Shown in pieces: positions 19,881 through 26,097 of a DNA stretch of 35,361 bases; within the stretch, counting starts at the first letter, position 1, and each line of letters begins with the position of its first letter. Both the position numbers and the translations under genes were made by a program. Source of the stretch: an uncultured Verrucomicrobiales bacterium (GTDB lineage: Bacteria > Verrucomicrobiota > Verrucomicrobiia > Verrucomicrobiales > Akkermansiaceae); contig CALDZJ010000025.1 of the NCBI GenBank assembly GCA_937944055.1, positions 1 to 35,361 of the forward strand. The letters are read 5' to 3'. The notes below the pieces were generated by a model, which saw only the letters and a list, made by a program, of their open reading frames with translations, was not told the origin of the DNA and made no database searches.

Positions 19881-19913
19881 GCTCGCTCCCAAACTTCTTA
19901 ATTTAGAGCGAGC
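19881..19913 (-). terminator. Possible hairpin terminator overlapping the end of the UxxU gene
   Basis: GCTCGCTC and GAGCGAGC form a perfect 8-bp stem around a 17-nt AT-rich loop. The hairpin overlaps the last codons and stop of the minus-strand thioredoxin-like gene. No T-run follows, so it may be a processing or 3'-end stabilising structure rather than an intrinsic terminator. Confidence 0.35.
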
Positions 19914-20949
19914 GAGTCGATAATCTCAGGAAGTAGCGTGACTCTTGCGGAGGCAAAGTGACCGTGACACTCTCTACACCGCTCGAGCTTGCGCCCACCT
20001 CCTCCAAGCCATCAGTGTCTAAGAGCGTTTCCGAGGACAGATCATTCCCCGCCATAATCGCGAGAGGCGTGACCTGAGCCATGATGTTCCGTTGATAGCG
20101 GAGTCGAGCTTGGCCATCTTGAACCACGATCCGAGGACCTTGCTCAGAGTCTGCAAGCTCAGGATTCGTGCCATAAGCGTATTCGAGTAAGTTACTCATT
20201 CCATCGCGGTCCGGATCATCATTTTCTCCACGCTGCGTCGTATCAGAAACATTAGCAACAGCCCAAGAGCTGAAAGATTCCATTTCCTCGGGAAGCTCAG
20301 CCGCATTCACGGCAGCACGAATATTTGAGACCTGATCATCGCTTAAGCTCACAAAAAAATCCGGAAGCACGCTATTATAGAGAACGGTCTGTGTGCTCCC
20401 ATCCACCACAGCTAACCAGCGGCGATTGGTGCTATTCGGAGCAGTCGTAGAGCCAAGCTCTCCCCGCGCAAAGAAATTAAAGCTATGAAACCTTTGCTCG
20501 TTTCGATTCTCCCCGAAGGCATCATAGCCGATCATCTGATAAGCGGAGCTTGAGAGACCGGGAGGCCTAGAATTCACCACAAGATTCCCATCATTCCCGC
20601 TCTCGATGGCCACATTGACCAAGATCGAACGATAGACGACTCCATTCTCATTTCGCCCAGCCTGATGATTATCACCCTCAGACTGGAAAAATCCATTAAT
20701 AGTGCTCGCAACCTGCGAGGCAGCAAAACTTCACCGCGGTCACCATGAGGCATGATAAACCACCACCAGAACCTCGCCCTCGGCATCCAAGAAATCAAAA
20801 TTAGATAAATTGGTCAGCGGAAAGGAAGGTGAAGCTTGCGTGAAACCAATGGGATCTGGCAACTCAGCCCCCACTAAGGCCTGCCCCGATACATGCGACA
20901 TCGAAGCCAGTCCCATCCCGGCGATAAGCGTTATTTTTTTGAAGTTCAT
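19903..20949 (-). CDS. Exported thioredoxin-like putative selenoprotein with UxxU active site
   Basis: A standard ORF stops after 69 codons (ending VVVYHASW), but the same frame continues through UGA (20740-20742), Pro-Arg and UGA (20731-20733), then stays open to TAA at 19903-19905, giving 348 residues. Read as Sec, the site is ASW-U70-P-R-U73-SFAASQ, exactly where a thioredoxin has WCxxC after the strand EVLVVVYHAS. Residues 1-23 are a signal peptide. Thioredoxin-like sequence follows the site (VVYRSILVNVAIESG). Near residue 235 comes a DPDRDGMSNLLEYAYGTNP calcium-type linker, then a beta-rich C-terminal domain. No frameshift is needed. A SECIS-like hairpin follows (separate entry). The UxxU motif recalls the diselenide SelL family of fish and marine bacteria; I cannot say whether it is homologous. 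It is the third gene of the operon, 18 bp after the barrel gene. Confidence 0.85.
20703..20722 (-). promoter_or_regulatory. Candidate bacterial SECIS element of the UxxU gene
   Basis: In the mRNA sense, CUCGCA-GGU-UGCGAG forms a perfect 6-bp stem with a GGU loop. Two further pairs below (UG with CA) form around a bulged C. The core GCA-GGU-UGC closely resembles the E. coli fdhF SECIS apex (GCA-GGUC-UGC). The loop begins 18 nt after the second UGA and 27 nt after the first. Both distances lie in the range (about 16-37 nt) expected of bacterial SECIS elements, so one hairpin could serve both codons. Confidence 0.75.
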
Positions 20950-20967
20950 AGTCCTATTATTGATACA

Positions 20968-22092
20968 TTAAAATTGATGAGTCAGCGCCAGTCGGACGGC
21001 CGTGAAGTCACGATCCTGATAAAGCGCCGTAAAGAAAACATTCCCGGTAGCGACCACGCTATCGTAGTCGATGGAGTAAAGGCCCACACTCCCGAGCACA
21101 CTTGTGGAGCCGTTTGACCAGCGGACTCCCGCCGCTAATTCACGGGTCCGGATCGCCGGAGCAGCAGTGTTAAAATTCGAGCTATTAATTTCCCCCGTAT
21201 CCTCGTAATAGCGATAATTCAAACTCAGCTGCCAACGTGAGTTCACATCATAAACAAAACCGAGGCCCCCATAGCGCGCAATGAAGGTCGGGTCCTCATG
21301 CGCCCCGCCGAGCTGCATCCGAGCCGTCAATTGATTCGTCAAAGCATACGCCCAGTCACTCTGGAACTGCGTCCGAATACGCCGCCCATCAGTCCGCCCG
21401 ATTCTGAGCGTCTGCTGAGTCCTCAACCGTGAATTAATCACAGTGCTCCAGACCGCCGTGCCAGTAAAAGTGCGCAGAACCTCATCGGTAGAAAACAAGC
21501 TCGCCTCCCCCGTCAGATCATTCACATCAAATTCCCAACCTGGGACAATCTCGGTATCCGCTTGAGCAAGCGTCACTGATAAGAAGCTCTTCCCCGGTTG
21601 GTAATTCCACTGCAAACCTAATGACCCCGAGAAACTCTGCGGATCAGCTTCACGATAAGCGGGATTCTCCCCATTCAATTGATCGTAATATTCAGAGATC
21701 CAAATCGAGCGATGATCCGTGAAGCCCTGACTATAAGCCAAGCTCCCAGTCACGGTGAAGTAAGGATTGATCACTTTTTCGACGCGGAAGTCATAAGTCT
21801 GCGCATTCTCACGGCGAATCGCCTCAGAAGTCACAAAAGTCGGAGTGTATTCCACGTTGTGGTAAATGTGACCCACACTTGCAGAGAAATTCCAACTCCC
21901 CCGAGTCTGCTCAAAGTTTAAGCGAGAAGTGATCACATCAATGTCATCGCTAAATAAGCCATCGGTCTCGACATCAAGCCGGTTCCCCCCCTCCGGAAAT
22001 AAATCCGCCCCCTTCGGGAGCAGATCTGCGCTTTGGCCAAGCAGGCCCTGAGTCAGAGAAAGAGGGATGAGAACTAGAAAAGGAAGTTGCAT
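20968..22092 (-). CDS. Outer-membrane beta-barrel protein, DUF3570-like
   Basis: A 374-residue protein with a signal peptide (MQLPFLVLIPLSLTQGLLGQ), then repeated amphipathic strands with aromatic ends (for example RGSWNFSASVGHIYHNVEY, WQLSLNYRYYEDTG, DFTAVRLALTHQF). The final Phe is typical of outer-membrane barrels. I assign it to the DUF3570 type from its general look and its place between a DUF4266-type lipoprotein and a thioredoxin-like gene, a gene neighbourhood I recall from proteobacteria (often with an ApbE flavin transferase, absent here). No cysteines or UGAs occur in it. It could be a channel or an outer-membrane scaffold for the two flanking redox proteins (inference). It starts 54 bp after the lipoprotein stop. 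Confidence 0.65.
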   Translation of the reverse strand: MQLPFLVLIPLSLTQGLLGQSADLLPKGADLFPEGGNRLDVETDGLFSDDIDVITSRLNFEQTRGSWNFSASVGHIYHNVEYTPTFVTSEAIRRENAQTYDFRVEKVINPYFTVTGSLAYSQGFTDHRSIWISEYYDQLNGENPAYREADPQSFSGSLGLQWNYQPGKSFLSVTLAQADTEIVPGWEFDVNDLTGEASLFSTDEVLRTFTGTAVWSTVINSRLRTQQTLRIGRTDGRRIRTQFQSDWAYALTNQLTARMQLGGAHEDPTFIARYGGLGFVYDVNSRWQLSLNYRYYEDTGEINSSNFNTAAPAIRTRELAAGVRWSNGSTSVLGSVGLYSIDYDSVVATGNVFFTALYQDRDFTAVRLALTHQF

Positions 22093-22128: not shown

Positions 22129-22148
22129 AAGGAGCCAACTGGCACCTT
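22129..22148 (-). promoter_or_regulatory. Candidate SECIS element of the small lipoprotein gene
   Basis: In the mRNA sense, AAGG-U-GCC and GGC-U-CCUU pair as a 4+3-bp stem with one U-U mismatch, closing the loop AGUU. The loop contains the GU expected in bacterial SECIS apices, and its G is 26 nt after the UGA at 22165-22167. The hairpin overlaps the UAA stop and extends into the spacer before the barrel gene. It lacks a following T-run, arguing against a terminator. Confidence 0.65.
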
Positions 22149-22353
22149 AGTTAGAGCAAGATGATCATCCACCGCCGGCAGACTGGCTCCCGCTCGCCCT
22201 CCCCTTTTCAAACTGACTGACCAAACCGCACTCCCCAAAATCCGCCCCCTGTTGGCCAAAGTTCATCGCCGTTTTATTCAGATCCGGCGTGGCCTGAGAG
22301 CAAGCTGACATCCCAAATGCCGCTGCTGAGAGAGAGAGTAAAAAGAGTTTCAT
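22147..22353 (-). CDS. DUF4266-like lipoprotein, putative C-terminal selenoprotein
   Basis: A small lipoprotein with signal MKLFLLSLSAAAFGMSAC, lipidated Cys at residue 18. A short hydrophilic middle leads to EKGRASGSQSAGGG, where a UGA (22165-22167) ends the normal ORF at 62 codons. The frame continues UGA-SSCSN-UAA, giving 68 residues with U63 and C66. DUF4266 lipoproteins, as I recall them, end in GGGCGCN-like motifs, so the UGA stands where the first Cys of that motif should be. A hairpin with GU in its loop follows (separate entry). It is the first gene of the putative selenoprotein operon and is divergent from the Lon-like pair. The Sec-x-x-Cys tail could form a selenylsulfide or bind metal (inference). 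A simple stop at UGA cannot be excluded from this gene alone. Confidence 0.75.
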
Positions 22354-22487: not shown

Positions 22488-24308
22488 ATGAGAATTTTTC
22501 TCACCATTTTCACCCTTGCTTGGATCTCCCCGGCCCTCGCATCCGTAAAGTTCGTCCCGCCAAACGACTCCCAGCCCCTCCTCCGGCGGGACCTCATCCC
22601 ACTAGATGTAGACGCCATTCGTGAACTCGCCGCTCACCTCGCGATCCTCGCAGACGGACCGCCCGCCAACTCCCCCGCCCAGCTCCGCAAGCAAGTCCAA
22701 GCCCTCACCCTTAGTCAACGACTCGCCCCCACGCAGGCCAGAGCTCGTGAAATCATGCAGGCCCTGAGCCAACCCTCCGAGGACTCCATGCGCCCCGCGC
22801 TTGACCCTAAGCGCACCACTTCAGCTCAGCGCTCCCTCCTCACCTCAGCCCGCTGGCTTGTCAAACTCCCCCCTGACTCAGAAGGCCACCACCTCGCCCA
22901 ACTCCTCCTCGATATTCTCCACGGACAAATCAAACAAGACCGCATCTTCACCCTGCATCACTCCGAAAAATCCCCACAGCGCTGGGAGGGAGTCGTCGCC
23001 AAGCTCGCCGCCTTTGAAGAAAAGCCCAAAGCTCCCATCCTCAGCGAAAATAACCACAACACCCCTCCAACGCCCCTCGGCACCCCGCCGAGAAACACCT
23101 CGGATGAGAGCCCCGCACCCACACCCACACCCACACCCACACCCACACCCGCACCCGCACCCAAGAAATTCCTCACCACCACCCTCCTCACCGAGGTCCC
23201 CATGATCGCCACCGGCCCTAAAAAAGAATCCCCAACGACCGCCGGACTCGTCAAAACCACCCTCGTCATCACAAAACAAAATCCGCCAAGCCCAGAACAA
23301 CTTCGCCTCCTCCCTAAACCTGACTTCTCCACCGCCCCCCTCCAAAGCACCCTAATCGACCTCTTCAAAGCCCTCCAACAAGACCTCCCCACCGGCCATC
23401 ATTTCAACGTCAACACTGACGGCCGACGCTACCTCTCAGAAAATCAAGAAAACCTCGCCGCCCCCATCGCCATGATGCTAGACGCCGCCCTCTCAGGGCG
23501 CTCGCTCCGCAACCACAGCATCCTCCTCGCGCACCTCCACCCAGACGGCTCACTCGGCAAGCCCGCACAAGCCTGGAAACTCCTCCTTGATCTAGAACGC
23601 CTCCGCATCCCCGAGGGCACCCGCCTCATCGTCGGCCCTGACATGATCGAAGAATTAACCGCCCTCCTCGTCTTTGAAAAAGCCCCCTTCTTCACCAAAT
23701 TTGAAGTCATCGAGGCTCCCACCTTCCAAGCAGCCCGTGAACTCTTCTATCAAGATGGCCAAGCTAGCGCTGCCCTCGCCGCCGCCATCGCCGGATACCA
23801 AGAAGTCCGCGAAAAAGCCCAGCTCGCCAGCAACTTCAACACCTTCTTCAGCCTCTCAGCCGTTGAAAAACGCCTCATCAAAGCCCGTGACCACTCCCCC
23901 CAACATCTCTCCGCCCGCATGCTCGCCACCCAATCGATCCGCCGCCCCGCCTACCTCTCCCGCTTCATGTGCGCTCAAGAACTCGACCGCAAGCTCGAGG
24001 GCATCTCACAACTCAAAATCAGCAACAAAATCGAGGACCTCAACAACCGAGCCATCAAAGACGCATACAAAACCGCTCGAGAATCGATCGACCCCCTCGA
24101 GCGTCTCCTCCAACTCTCAGAACGCGCCCTCCTAGACGACACCCTCGACCTCCTAAAAAAACTCAACTCCATAGGACGCATCGGCTCCACATCCTCCGAT
24201 CAGCAAAAAATCGAACGTAAGACAAAAGACTTCGCAGAATTTCAAACTGAACTCACCCAACTCCGAAAAAAACTCCGCCGCATCTATCACAAAAACTATA
24301 AAAAATAA
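22488..24308 (+). CDS. Exported Lon-protease-like protein lacking the catalytic serine
   Basis: A 606-residue protein with a signal peptide (MRIFLTIFTLAWISPALA). Residues about 20-190 are helical. A Pro/Thr/Ala linker (about 205-226) is encoded by a hexanucleotide repeat. Residues about 285-430 match the Lon peptidase fold of the next gene: NLAAPIAMMLDAALSGRSL parallels SAGTAMSIILDSLFTGLEL, and HPDGSLGKPAQAWK parallels TADGKVTRIGGVAGK. The catalytic Ser is missing (Glu321/Asn322 stand there), while a Lys (K364) aligns with the dyad lysine. The C-terminal 200 residues are helical, charged and coiled-coil-like. It is probably a pseudoprotease partner or structural subunit of the downstream Lon-like protease. 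A weak terminator separates the two genes. Confidence 0.6.
   Translation: MRIFLTIFTLAWISPALASVKFVPPNDSQPLLRRDLIPLDVDAIRELAAHLAILADGPPANSPAQLRKQVQALTLSQRLAPTQARAREIMQALSQPSEDSMRPALDPKRTTSAQRSLLTSARWLVKLPPDSEGHHLAQLLLDILHGQIKQDRIFTLHHSEKSPQRWEGVVAKLAAFEEKPKAPILSENNHNTPPTPLGTPPRNTSDESPAPTPTPTPTPTPAPAPKKFLTTTLLTEVPMIATGPKKESPTTAGLVKTTLVITKQNPPSPEQLRLLPKPDFSTAPLQSTLIDLFKALQQDLPTGHHFNVNTDGRRYLSENQENLAAPIAMMLDAALSGRSLRNHSILLAHLHPDGSLGKPAQAWKLLLDLERLRIPEGTRLIVGPDMIEELTALLVFEKAPFFTKFEVIEAPTFQAARELFYQDGQASAALAAAIAGYQEVREKAQLASNFNTFFSLSAVEKRLIKARDHSPQHLSARMLATQSIRRPAYLSRFMCAQELDRKLEGISQLKISNKIEDLNNRAIKDAYKTARESIDPLERLLQLSERALLDDTLDLLKKLNSIGRIGSTSSDQQKIERKTKDFAEFQTELTQLRKKLRRIYHKNYKK
23115..23162 (+). 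repeat. Hexanucleotide tandem repeat (8 units) encoding a Pro-Thr/Ala linker
   Basis: Eight in-frame copies of (A/G)CACCC lie in a row, five with A followed by two with G after an initial G copy. They encode alternating Pro with Thr or Ala. Copy-number slippage would change linker length without shifting the frame. Confidence 0.9.
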
Positions 24309-24378: not shown

Positions 24379-26097
24379 ATGACCACACGCCTCATCACCC
24401 TCTTCTTTCTCCTAGCTGGAGCCCTTTTTGCCGACTCCTACCGTCCGCCAAATATGGACAAGGAACTCTTTAAAACAGACAAACTCGCCATTGATAAAAT
24501 CTCCCGTACCGCCCTCTTTTCTGGGCTCATCTCCGTCGCCCGGGACTTTGATGATAAAGAAAACGAGGTCGACTATGAGCTCCGCTCAAATGCCCTCGCC
24601 ATCGCCGGTCGCCTCGACCCAGAATCAGAAACCTTCAAAGATACCGCTGACGACCTCGAAACTCGCGGCAAAACAAACGCTGAAGACGGCGCGACAAAAT
24701 CCGCCATCTCCGCCAAAATCTACCGCGGCATCCGGGCCCTCCTTCGTAAAAAAGGAAACAGCGATAACGAGAAATGCGCCGCCTACTGCATCGACATCGC
24801 CCTTCGCCTCGATCCTGATGGAAAATACGAAAGCAAGCTCACCACCTATCGGGATAAAGTCGGCAAAGCTGACTGGAAAGACATGCTAAAAGCCCCAACC
24901 TCTCGCAGCCCGTGGGATCGTAATGAAGATAACGAGTTCAAGGAACGCTCAGAAACCATCCCCGGAGGTGATGCTGAGAAATTCGCCGCCACCCAGCGCG
25001 TCGTTTATGGCCTCTCCGTCCTCACCCTCTCCAATGGCCGCCAAGCAGGCGCCGCCTCATCTCTCAGCGCCACCGCCCTCCGTGATAAAGACACCGAGGG
25101 CATCGAGTTCCACATCGACCAAAAAGTCGGTAACATGACCGGCAACTCGCTAGAAGAGATTCAGAAACTCATGCGCGTGCGCCACGAGGAAGCAGGCCGC
25201 ATCCCCTCCGGCTATAAAGTCGAAATCACCTTCGAAGATAAAGACCAACTTCTTGACGGACCCTCTGCCGGCACCGCCATGTCCATCATCCTAGACTCCC
25301 TCTTCACCGGCTTAGAGCTAGATGACCGCTTCGCGATCACCGGCGCCATCACCGCTGACGGGAAAGTCACCCGCATCGGCGGCGTCGCCGGCAAAGTCCG
25401 CGGAGCCACCAAAAAAGGCTGTAACCTCGTCGGCGTCCCTCATGAAAACATCAAAGGAGTCTCCGACATCCTCGTCCTCGGCGGGATTGACCCACTCATC
25501 AACATTCAGGTCTTCAGCTTCAAAACCCTCGATGAAGCCCTCATGGTCGCCTCGAAGAACAAACCGGAAAAAGTCCAATCCACCATCGATGACTTTAATA
25601 AAGTAGCCTCCATCATTAAGGAAAAAGGCATCAGCTCCCTCTCCGATCGCAAAGTCATCTCCCTCCTCGAAAGCGTAGTCGAAAAAATGCCCCATCATCA
25701 ATCAGCCCAAATCCTCCTAAGCGTCGCCAAAAAGAAAGAAGCAAAGATCCTCTCAGTTGGCGGATCCTTCCACCAAATTAACATCAAAACCTCCGCCATG
25801 GTCGAGAAAGTCCAAATGATGACTTGGTCCGGAAAATTCAACTACACCTCCTCAGACCGACAAGATGCCAAAGAGTCCCTCGCCGAGCTTGAAGAAGTCG
25901 CCGAAAAGCTCGATCCACGCCTCAAGGACTATAACGAAGCCATGCTCTCCATCTTAAAGGTCTACTCAAATGGCCGCGATGAAGATGAAGATGACGAGAG
26001 CTTCATCAAGCGCCTCAAAAAAGAATGGGAAGAGCTCTCAGCTAAGCGCAAAAAACTCATGGGAGATCCCGAAATCGTCGAAGAACTCTACGGCTAA
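24379..26097 (+). CDS. Exported Lon-like (S16) serine protease
   Basis: A 572-residue protein with a signal peptide (MTTRLITLFFLLAGALFA). The Lon proteolytic domain spans about residues 205-395. The catalytic Ser lies in LLDGPSAGTAMSI (S296) and the dyad Lys in GGVAGKVRGA (K339); their 43-residue spacing equals that of E. coli Lon (S679/K722). There is no AAA+ ATPase domain, so it is an ATP-independent, exported Lon-like protease. The N-terminal 200 residues are helical and charged (DFDDKENEVDYELRS). The C-terminal part (about 400-572) is acidic and helical with DEDEDDESF. It follows the serine-less relative by 70 bp, and a strong bidirectional terminator ends the unit. Substrates are unknown; both genes probably form one periplasmic complex (inference). 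Confidence 0.82.
   Translation: MTTRLITLFFLLAGALFADSYRPPNMDKELFKTDKLAIDKISRTALFSGLISVARDFDDKENEVDYELRSNALAIAGRLDPESETFKDTADDLETRGKTNAEDGATKSAISAKIYRGIRALLRKKGNSDNEKCAAYCIDIALRLDPDGKYESKLTTYRDKVGKADWKDMLKAPTSRSPWDRNEDNEFKERSETIPGGDAEKFAATQRVVYGLSVLTLSNGRQAGAASSLSATALRDKDTEGIEFHIDQKVGNMTGNSLEEIQKLMRVRHEEAGRIPSGYKVEITFEDKDQLLDGPSAGTAMSIILDSLFTGLELDDRFAITGAITADGKVTRIGGVAGKVRGATKKGCNLVGVPHENIKGVSDILVLGGIDPLINIQVFSFKTLDEALMVASKNKPEKVQSTIDDFNKVASIIKEKGISSLSDRKVISLLESVVEKMPHHQSAQILLSVAKKKEAKILSVGGSFHQINIKTSAMVEKVQMMTWSGKFNYTSSDRQDAKESLAELEEVAEKLDPRLKDYNEAMLSILKVYSNGRDEDEDDESFIKRLKKEWEELSAKRKKLMGDPEIVEELYG

Follow-up and report, generated by a model that had tools for sequence, protein, structure and literature searches.

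How a bacterial gene that carries two in-frame UGA codons within a thioredoxin-type motif is read, and what its product does together with the products of the adjacent genes, is the question raised by a locus in an uncultured Verrucomicrobiales bacterium (GenBank assembly GCA_937944055.1). The whole stretch of DNA analysed here, referred to as the window, comprises 35,361 nucleotides of contig CALDZJ010000025.1 (positions 1 to 35,361). An original prediction, made from the letters alone, put this gene forward as a candidate for a protein with two selenocysteines, and comparative sequence analysis supports that interpretation.

The reading frame of gene 3

The gene in question (gene 3; 19903..20949, minus strand) runs from an ATG at 20949 to a TAA at 19903, and its frame of 348 codons continues, as had been predicted, through two UGAs in a W-U-P-R-U motif. 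These are the only in-frame stops inside the gene. The first, codon 70 (20740..20742, minus strand), and the second, codon 73 (20731..20733, minus strand), stand at the first and second Cys of a CxxC motif, respectively, so that the 348-aa product would be an exported thioredoxin-like protein with a UxxU motif. When TGA is translated as Sec, the protein reads MNFKKITLIAGMGLASMSHVSGQ...EVLVVVYHASW-U-P-R-U-SFAASQVAST...DPDRDGMSNLLEYAYGTNP...; under the standard code, gene 3 is visible only as an ORF of 239 aa at 19903-20622.

Several parts can be discerned within this protein. An N-terminal signal peptide (20881..20949, minus strand) was assigned by eye, and export of the product is predicted from this appearance of the N-terminus. 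The sequence contains a DPDRDG-type (TSP3-like) linker (20158..20220, minus strand); matches to the TSP3_bac model, all below the cut-off, were found in two of six family members scanned, the window's own protein not being among them. The C-terminal part that follows (19906..20157, minus strand) is, by protein search, common to other, often large, proteins of related genomes. Among the matches listed, many genomes match the gene 3 protein at approximately query residues 200-345 alone, which bears out the earlier claim that a Verrucomicrobia-type C-terminal part is fused to the thioredoxin-like part. The thioredoxin-like part itself, in 17 members compared with Pfam, matches Thioredoxin (12/17), Redoxin (11/17), and AhpC-TSA (11/17), all weakly, and PDB profile matches of gene 3 are to PDI and thioredoxin domains around the motif (best E 4.4e-7). 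The best NCBIfam match of the family is Amuc_1099 (E 7.9e-6; model cut-off 50 bits), and the next lies at E 0.006. AlphaFold models, with pLDDT values of 38.5 and 35.1, are too poor to be used for the fold.

Coding constraint is alike on the two sides of the UGAs, as the prediction had it. Between the window gene (L017) and a homologue (L018), identity is 59% before and 60% after the UGAs, with pN of 0.29 and 0.27 and pS of 0.64 and 0.76, respectively. In all 10 comparisons made (five pairs, namely L017/L018 and four others, each before and after the UGAs), pS exceeds pN. Furthermore, a protein search of 58 related genomes revealed at least eight other genomes with two TGAs at the codons corresponding to 70 and 73, and at least six more with one TGA in the gene 3 homologue; further two-TGA homologues were seen in an order-wide profile search. 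The like constraint on both sides and the recurrence of the TGAs elsewhere thus place the interrupted frame beyond chance, and since the same TGAs recur in other assemblies, sequencing error, which could have undone the prediction, is excluded.

Exchange of selenocysteine and cysteine in the UxxU family

Homologues with Cys in place of either UGA had been proposed as a check, and the family provides them. The 34 members kept, which are non-redundant matches with the motif in view and a score of at least 60 bits, comprise 18 UxxU, 9 UxxC, and 7 CxxC proteins, and all 34 have exclusively UGA or Cys codons at both sites. This set excludes five matches below 60 bits (L073-L077), in each of which both sites hold Cys, as well as eight alignments that do not extend to the motif column. 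At least six changes among the three states are required on the tree of the 34 members. Exchange can be seen even within a close group, in which L027 has WUPTC and L025 and L026 have WCPTC (UGA versus TGC).

With a 17-row profile of the thioredoxin-like part (A3), matches at E 1e-6 were obtained in 26 of the 260 genomes searched from the taxonomic family, five of these matches being weak, of WCGPC or similar type, and not counted as family. At 1e-8, the profile matched 27 of 386 genomes of the order (two with the weak WCGPC-like type) and, at 1e-12, 2 of 387 genomes of the phylum, which belong to the window's bacterium and to another member of its taxonomic family. The UxxU family thus seems to be confined to the order Verrucomicrobiales. 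Against named genomes, the single gene 3 protein as query found no relative; a three-row alignment found two, in the Akkermansiaceae bacterium isolate ANT-87 and in an uncultured Verrucomicrobiales bacterium. Two partial members, G333:C375 and G352:C57, carry an extra stop besides the UGAs (TAG and TAA, respectively). Multiple copies also occur: one genome of the order (G365) has five UxxU/UxxC family matches (L109-L113), one of them in a 712-aa frame, and another (G050) has three, of which two are in tandem and one is at a separate place.

A hairpin within the coding sequence

Bacterial SECIS elements have been delimited by a loop of 3-9 nt with a G among its first two nucleotides, a spacing of 16-37 nt, and an MFE of -7.5 or lower (PMC13188914). 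The hairpin with a GGU loop that had been noted downstream of the UGAs is present within the coding sequence of gene 3, at 20703..20721 (minus strand), and covariation and these published limits mark it as SECIS-like; the distances given for it, 27 and 18 nt, need correction, however, since its loop lies 26 nt past the first UGA codon and 17 nt past the second. Its MFE is -9.6 in a 39-nt stretch. Among the UGA members, the loop follows the first UGA at a distance of 25-26 nt and the second at 16-17 nt, and this latter spacing is at the lower limit of the published range. With loops of 3-6 nt that lie 23-27 nt past the first codon, and with the MFE computed on a 39-nt stretch, the published limits held for 15 of 18 UxxU and 7 of 9 UxxC genes (22/27 UGA members) and for none of the 7 CxxC genes. 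The five UGA members that fall outside miss the free-energy limit.

From the first UGA onward, the 27 UGA members align without gaps, and over their 7-pair helix, 75.1% of cells are paired, 46 cells are changed on both sides, and the covariation score is 0.588, values that were each matched by 0 of 500 shuffles. On further pair types, 4 of 500 shuffles did as well, and on one of the five covariation measures, the number of pairs with change on both sides, 235 of 500 did. When the helix is shifted by 1-3 columns, the covariation score lies between 0.108 and 0.241. The two outermost pairs of the helix are unpaired in 20 and 14 of the 27 members. The loop region opens with an A and a G that never vary among the 27 UGA members but do so among the 7 Cys members; a T and a G that come next are constant in both sets. 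Compared with synonymous recodings, the mean folding z is -1.1 for UxxU, -0.72 for UxxC, and +0.68 for CxxC genes, with negative values in 17 of 18 UxxU genes and positive values in 6 of 7 CxxC genes; taken singly, 4 of the 27 UGA members fold better than their recodings at p < 0.05, and three (L082, L084, and L021) fold no better at all. The hairpin is thus covarying and in range of both UGAs, consistent with the proposal that one element serves the two.

A covariance model (R1) built from the family hairpin gives gene 3 a score of 43.8 bits in the window, the next best place having 11.6, and does not detect the hairpin of a second gene, gene 1, described below. Over 27 genomes of the genus, it finds 25 places, which are 14 training members, one CxxC member (G018), and 10 others, all of them weak (E 0.05 to 0.9 per genome). 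Nine of these 10 start at an in-frame UGA in ASWU[PG]PC, the motif of another thioredoxin group of the same genus (L165, L166, L172, L167, L169, L170, L171, L173, and L175); as they are mutually alike, they count as one further group, and their R1 score may in part reflect the W-U-x-x-C coding that they share with the family. In the window's own genome, R1 at E 1 finds a single place and is therefore uninformative on the genome's other selenoproteins.

The selenium machinery and the meaning of UGA

The prediction had been tied to the presence of Sec machinery, and the genome contains selA (486 bits), selB (over its cut-off, 307 bits), selD (380 bits), and a tRNA-Sec gene (selC) above the gathering score, with anticodon UCA. 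The selD gene (L048, G000:C45:95847-96776) has one in-frame TGA, and thus SelD is probably itself a selenoprotein. tRNA-Sec is over the cut-off in 12 of 15 genomes with UGA-bearing members; in the remaining three, G008, G020, and G026, all of them drafts, it was not over the cut-off, the filters of this search being stricter.

UGA also serves as a stop here. Five of 19 ORFs picked in the window end in TGA, and internal TGA is found among the 19 in genes 1 and 3 only. In three homologous loci (L018, L020, and L021), the UxxU/UxxC gene itself appears to end in UGA as a true stop, in which case UGA would have both meanings within one gene. Beyond this terminal UGA, the frame of L018 and of L020 continues in phase into a downstream jag/KhpB-like gene.

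Given the exchange of UGA and Cys codons, a hairpin that covaries and lies within the published limits, and the full Sec machinery, both UGAs of gene 3 almost certainly encode selenocysteine, with one hairpin serving both.

A second candidate selenoprotein gene

Approximately 1.2 kb upstream of gene 3 in the same unit lies another UGA-bearing gene, which the original prediction did not include. Gene 1 (22147..22353, minus strand) was recognised by homologues and a profile match and would encode a small DUF4266-like lipoprotein of 68 aa, with a lipobox-like Cys18 (by eye) and a C-terminal GGG-U-SSC-SN, the family's tail being GG-[U/C]-xx-C. Its in-frame UGA is codon 63 (22165..22167, minus strand). 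In 20 homologues, this site has UGA in 6 (the window, L050, L089, L090, L091, and L099) and Cys in 14. A SECIS-like hairpin, AAGGTGCC-AGTT-GGCTCCTT (22129..22148, minus strand), starts in the gene 1 stop codon, with its loop 24 nt past the UGA; as most of it lies 3' of the stop codon, protein constraint does not explain it.

With a search that required G in the first two loop places, the best hairpin in all six UGA lipoprotein genes has 7-9 pairs and lies 23-24 nt past the UGA, a size reached by 1 to 19 of 200 plain shuffles. The best hairpin in the 14 Cys genes has 2-6 pairs, which 26 to 184 of 200 shuffles reach, and none of the 14 has a hairpin at that place comparable to those of the UGA members. 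Each of the six UGA lipoprotein genes adjoins a UGA-bearing thioredoxin gene; the converse fails, as in L092. These results suggest that gene 1 is a selenoprotein gene. Of 32 loci scanned, 20 have a lipoprotein gene (19 recognised by pattern, plus L105), several of the other 12 being short stretches; pattern matches in L101 and L103, chance matches away from the unit, were dropped.

The gene unit and its relation to DUF4266/DUF3570 clusters

Gene 2 (20968..22092, minus strand), which lies between genes 1 and 3, probably encodes an outer-membrane beta-barrel protein of 374 aa, although its matches to beta-barrel models are below the cut-off. The conserved unit thus consists of the small lipoprotein gene, which precedes the barrel gene, then the barrel, and last the UxxU protein. 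The two genes of the plus strand at 22488-24308 and 24379-26097 are related to each other, the second having a Lon-type C-terminal protease domain, and in 13 of the 26 loci compared their cluster occurs close to the unit.

Clusters with DUF4266, DUF3570, a thioredoxin-like protein, ApbE, and, in part, DsbD have been described; there, [S/T]GA[S/T] is the flavinylation site of DUF3570, and DUF4266 carries a CxC motif at its C-terminus (eLife 2021, PMC8238504). The proteins of the present unit fall short of the corresponding Pfam cut-offs in every member (20 lipoproteins and 17 barrels). DUF4266 (PF14086) is matched by 2 of 20 lipoproteins, with a best E of 0.0036 and one stretch at 19.5 bits against a cut-off of 27, and DUF3570 (PF12094) by 2 of 17 barrels, with a best E of 0.0048 and one score of 11.8 against a cut-off of 25. 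The barrels' best Pfam match is YaiO (6/17, best E 2.9e-5), and the best NCBIfam match of the lipoprotein stands at 0.023.

For comparison, a sample of 288 genomes from the phylum was scanned for DUF4266, which exceeded its cut-off in 28 of them, and 14 such regions were examined; in one canonical region (L143), DUF3570, ApbE, thioredoxin, and DUF4266 follow in that order, by eye. In hhalign, the lipoprotein aligns with 11 canonical DUF4266 sequences at 95.3%, in an alignment that includes the signal region, and the thioredoxin part with 13 canonical sequences at 97.3%, mainly around the motif; the barrel reaches 16.7% with DUF3570, and five mismatched controls give 0.1-1.9%. The [S/T]GA[S/T] motif is found in 9 of 13 canonical DUF3570 candidates, chosen by place and size. 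In the present unit, it occurs once, in 1 of 17 barrels, and the idea of a flavinylated DUF3570 system was therefore rejected.

The likeness between the present unit and the clusters of that paper is one of composition: a small secreted protein with a C-terminal Cys motif, a DUF3570-type protein, and a thioredoxin-like protein are encoded by adjoining genes. The differences are that no apbE was seen directly beside the unit in the window (two matches in the genome are both on other contigs), that the barrel mostly lacks the flavin motif, and that the gene order is not the same. In addition, the lipoprotein tail is CxxC or UxxC here rather than the CxC of DUF4266 in that paper, and the thioredoxin part has Sec and a C-terminal extension, unlike the thioredoxin of the canonical cluster. 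On this basis, the unit probably works like a DUF4266/DUF3570/thioredoxin cluster and is kin to it, though it is not assigned as a member.

A proposed relay and its alternatives

Taken together, these comparisons lead to a model in which genes 1 and 3 are selenoprotein genes whose products would form an exported relay, a selenium version of the DUF4266/DUF3570/thioredoxin electron-transfer clusters that dispenses with covalent flavin; we regard this model as quite likely. In it, the gene 1 product would be an exported lipoprotein that has a UxxC tail at its C-terminus and is held at the barrel, the outer-membrane protein encoded by gene 2. The gene 3 product would have a thioredoxin fold with a UxxU diselenide/diselenol centre, a selenenylsulfide could form in the UxxC tail of the lipoprotein, and electrons would be exchanged between the UxxU protein and this tail at the barrel, perhaps in extracytoplasmic electron transfer or repair. 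We infer an extracytoplasmic selenol/thiol relay as the function of the unit. A more specific version, in which the unit is an outer-membrane redox module where selenium replaces covalent flavin, with a diselenide thioredoxin and a selenenylsulfide lipoprotein tail, both relay partners being selenoproteins of one gene unit, can be put forward only tentatively.

It is also conceivable, if rather unlikely, that both UGAs are Sec but that the gene 3 protein acts on its own in the periplasm, as a peroxidase, reductase, or disulfide catalyst of the Prx/TlpA type, with functionally unrelated neighbours. The best, if weak, Pfam matches to Redoxin, AhpC-TSA, and Thioredoxin and the PDI and thioredoxin profiles from the PDB would fit such an enzyme, as would the four of 26 loci (L104, L112, L113, and L114) in which no barrel was seen directly upstream. 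However, a barrel gene is directly upstream of the UxxU-family gene in the other 22 loci, which span eight genera (20 by cluster and two, L089 and L102, on reading frames), and the lipoprotein is as frequent as given above; by contrast, the jag-side genes lie on differing sides of the unit among the loci compared.

Another possibility concerns the second UGA. If the first alone were decoded well as Sec and the second often terminated translation, part of the product would be truncated. The hairpin, at mid-range from the first UGA and so close to the second, would agree with this, and UxxC members, in which only the first site is a UGA, have their hairpin at the same place; yet both UGAs are kept in 18 of 27 UGA members and constraint continues past them, which makes frequent termination there quite improbable. 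There is hardly any chance that gene 3, for all its two in-frame stops in a draft genome, is a decayed pseudogene or a product of sequencing errors, given the same two TGAs elsewhere, the uniform excess of pS over pN, and the covarying hairpin, and just as little that this genome has reassigned UGA to an ordinary amino acid or reads through it as one, as a frame open through UGA might by itself suggest, since other ORFs of the window and the homologous genes cited end, or appear to end, in UGA and internal TGA is confined to genes 1 and 3.

Relation to known selenoproteins and implications

In the SelL family, which has a UxxU motif, a single SECIS serves both Sec. A diselenide bond within a redox motif of two Sec has been reported for it (PMC2397514), and its likeness to gene 3, by description alone, is this two-Sec motif. 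Table 1 of a 2026 survey, which has 119 prokaryotic selenoprotein families or subfamilies, gives as UxxU entries a PF00578 oxidoreductase (UxxC/UxxU, a Prx-like thiol:disulfide protein), a metal-binding protein, and FmdB (PMC13188914). By their descriptions, none of its rows corresponds to the gene 1 or gene 3 protein, and there is no DUF4266 row. The PF00578 protein shares with gene 3 the use of UxxU for CxxC in a protein that is, or in the case of gene 3 would be, of the thioredoxin-fold type; unlike it, the gene 3 family has best PF00578 matches of E 0.0005 or weaker and carries a TSP3-like C-terminal fusion. GOS Prx-like 2, which is UxxC with several UxxU members and fusions and is near pfam04592 (PLoS Genet 2008, PMC2398784), resembles the gene 3 family in these motifs and fusions, again as judged by its description. 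At E 1, pfam04592 matches none of 17 family members, a weak test, as the E of the GOS proteins themselves for pfam04592 is >0.001 (PMC2398784).

The word "selenocysteine" is absent from the main text of the DUF4266/DUF3570 cluster paper (PMC8238504), and the papers found on selenoproteins and Verrucomicrobia/Verrucomicrobiota/Akkermansiaceae make no mention of genes 1 and 3 in their titles and abstract openings. The lipoprotein gene would thus be a second, previously unreported gene for a selenium protein, a small one that is easily missed. Few families in the table of PMC13188914 have two Sec in one motif, and the gene 3 family would add one. It provides a natural instance of two UGAs, nine bases apart, that both lie within range of a single bacterial hairpin, and because UxxU, UxxC, and CxxC versions occur naturally among its relatives, a direct test of what each Sec contributes is possible. 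The unit would also represent a selenium-based form of a type of outer-membrane electron-transfer cluster that is itself poorly understood.
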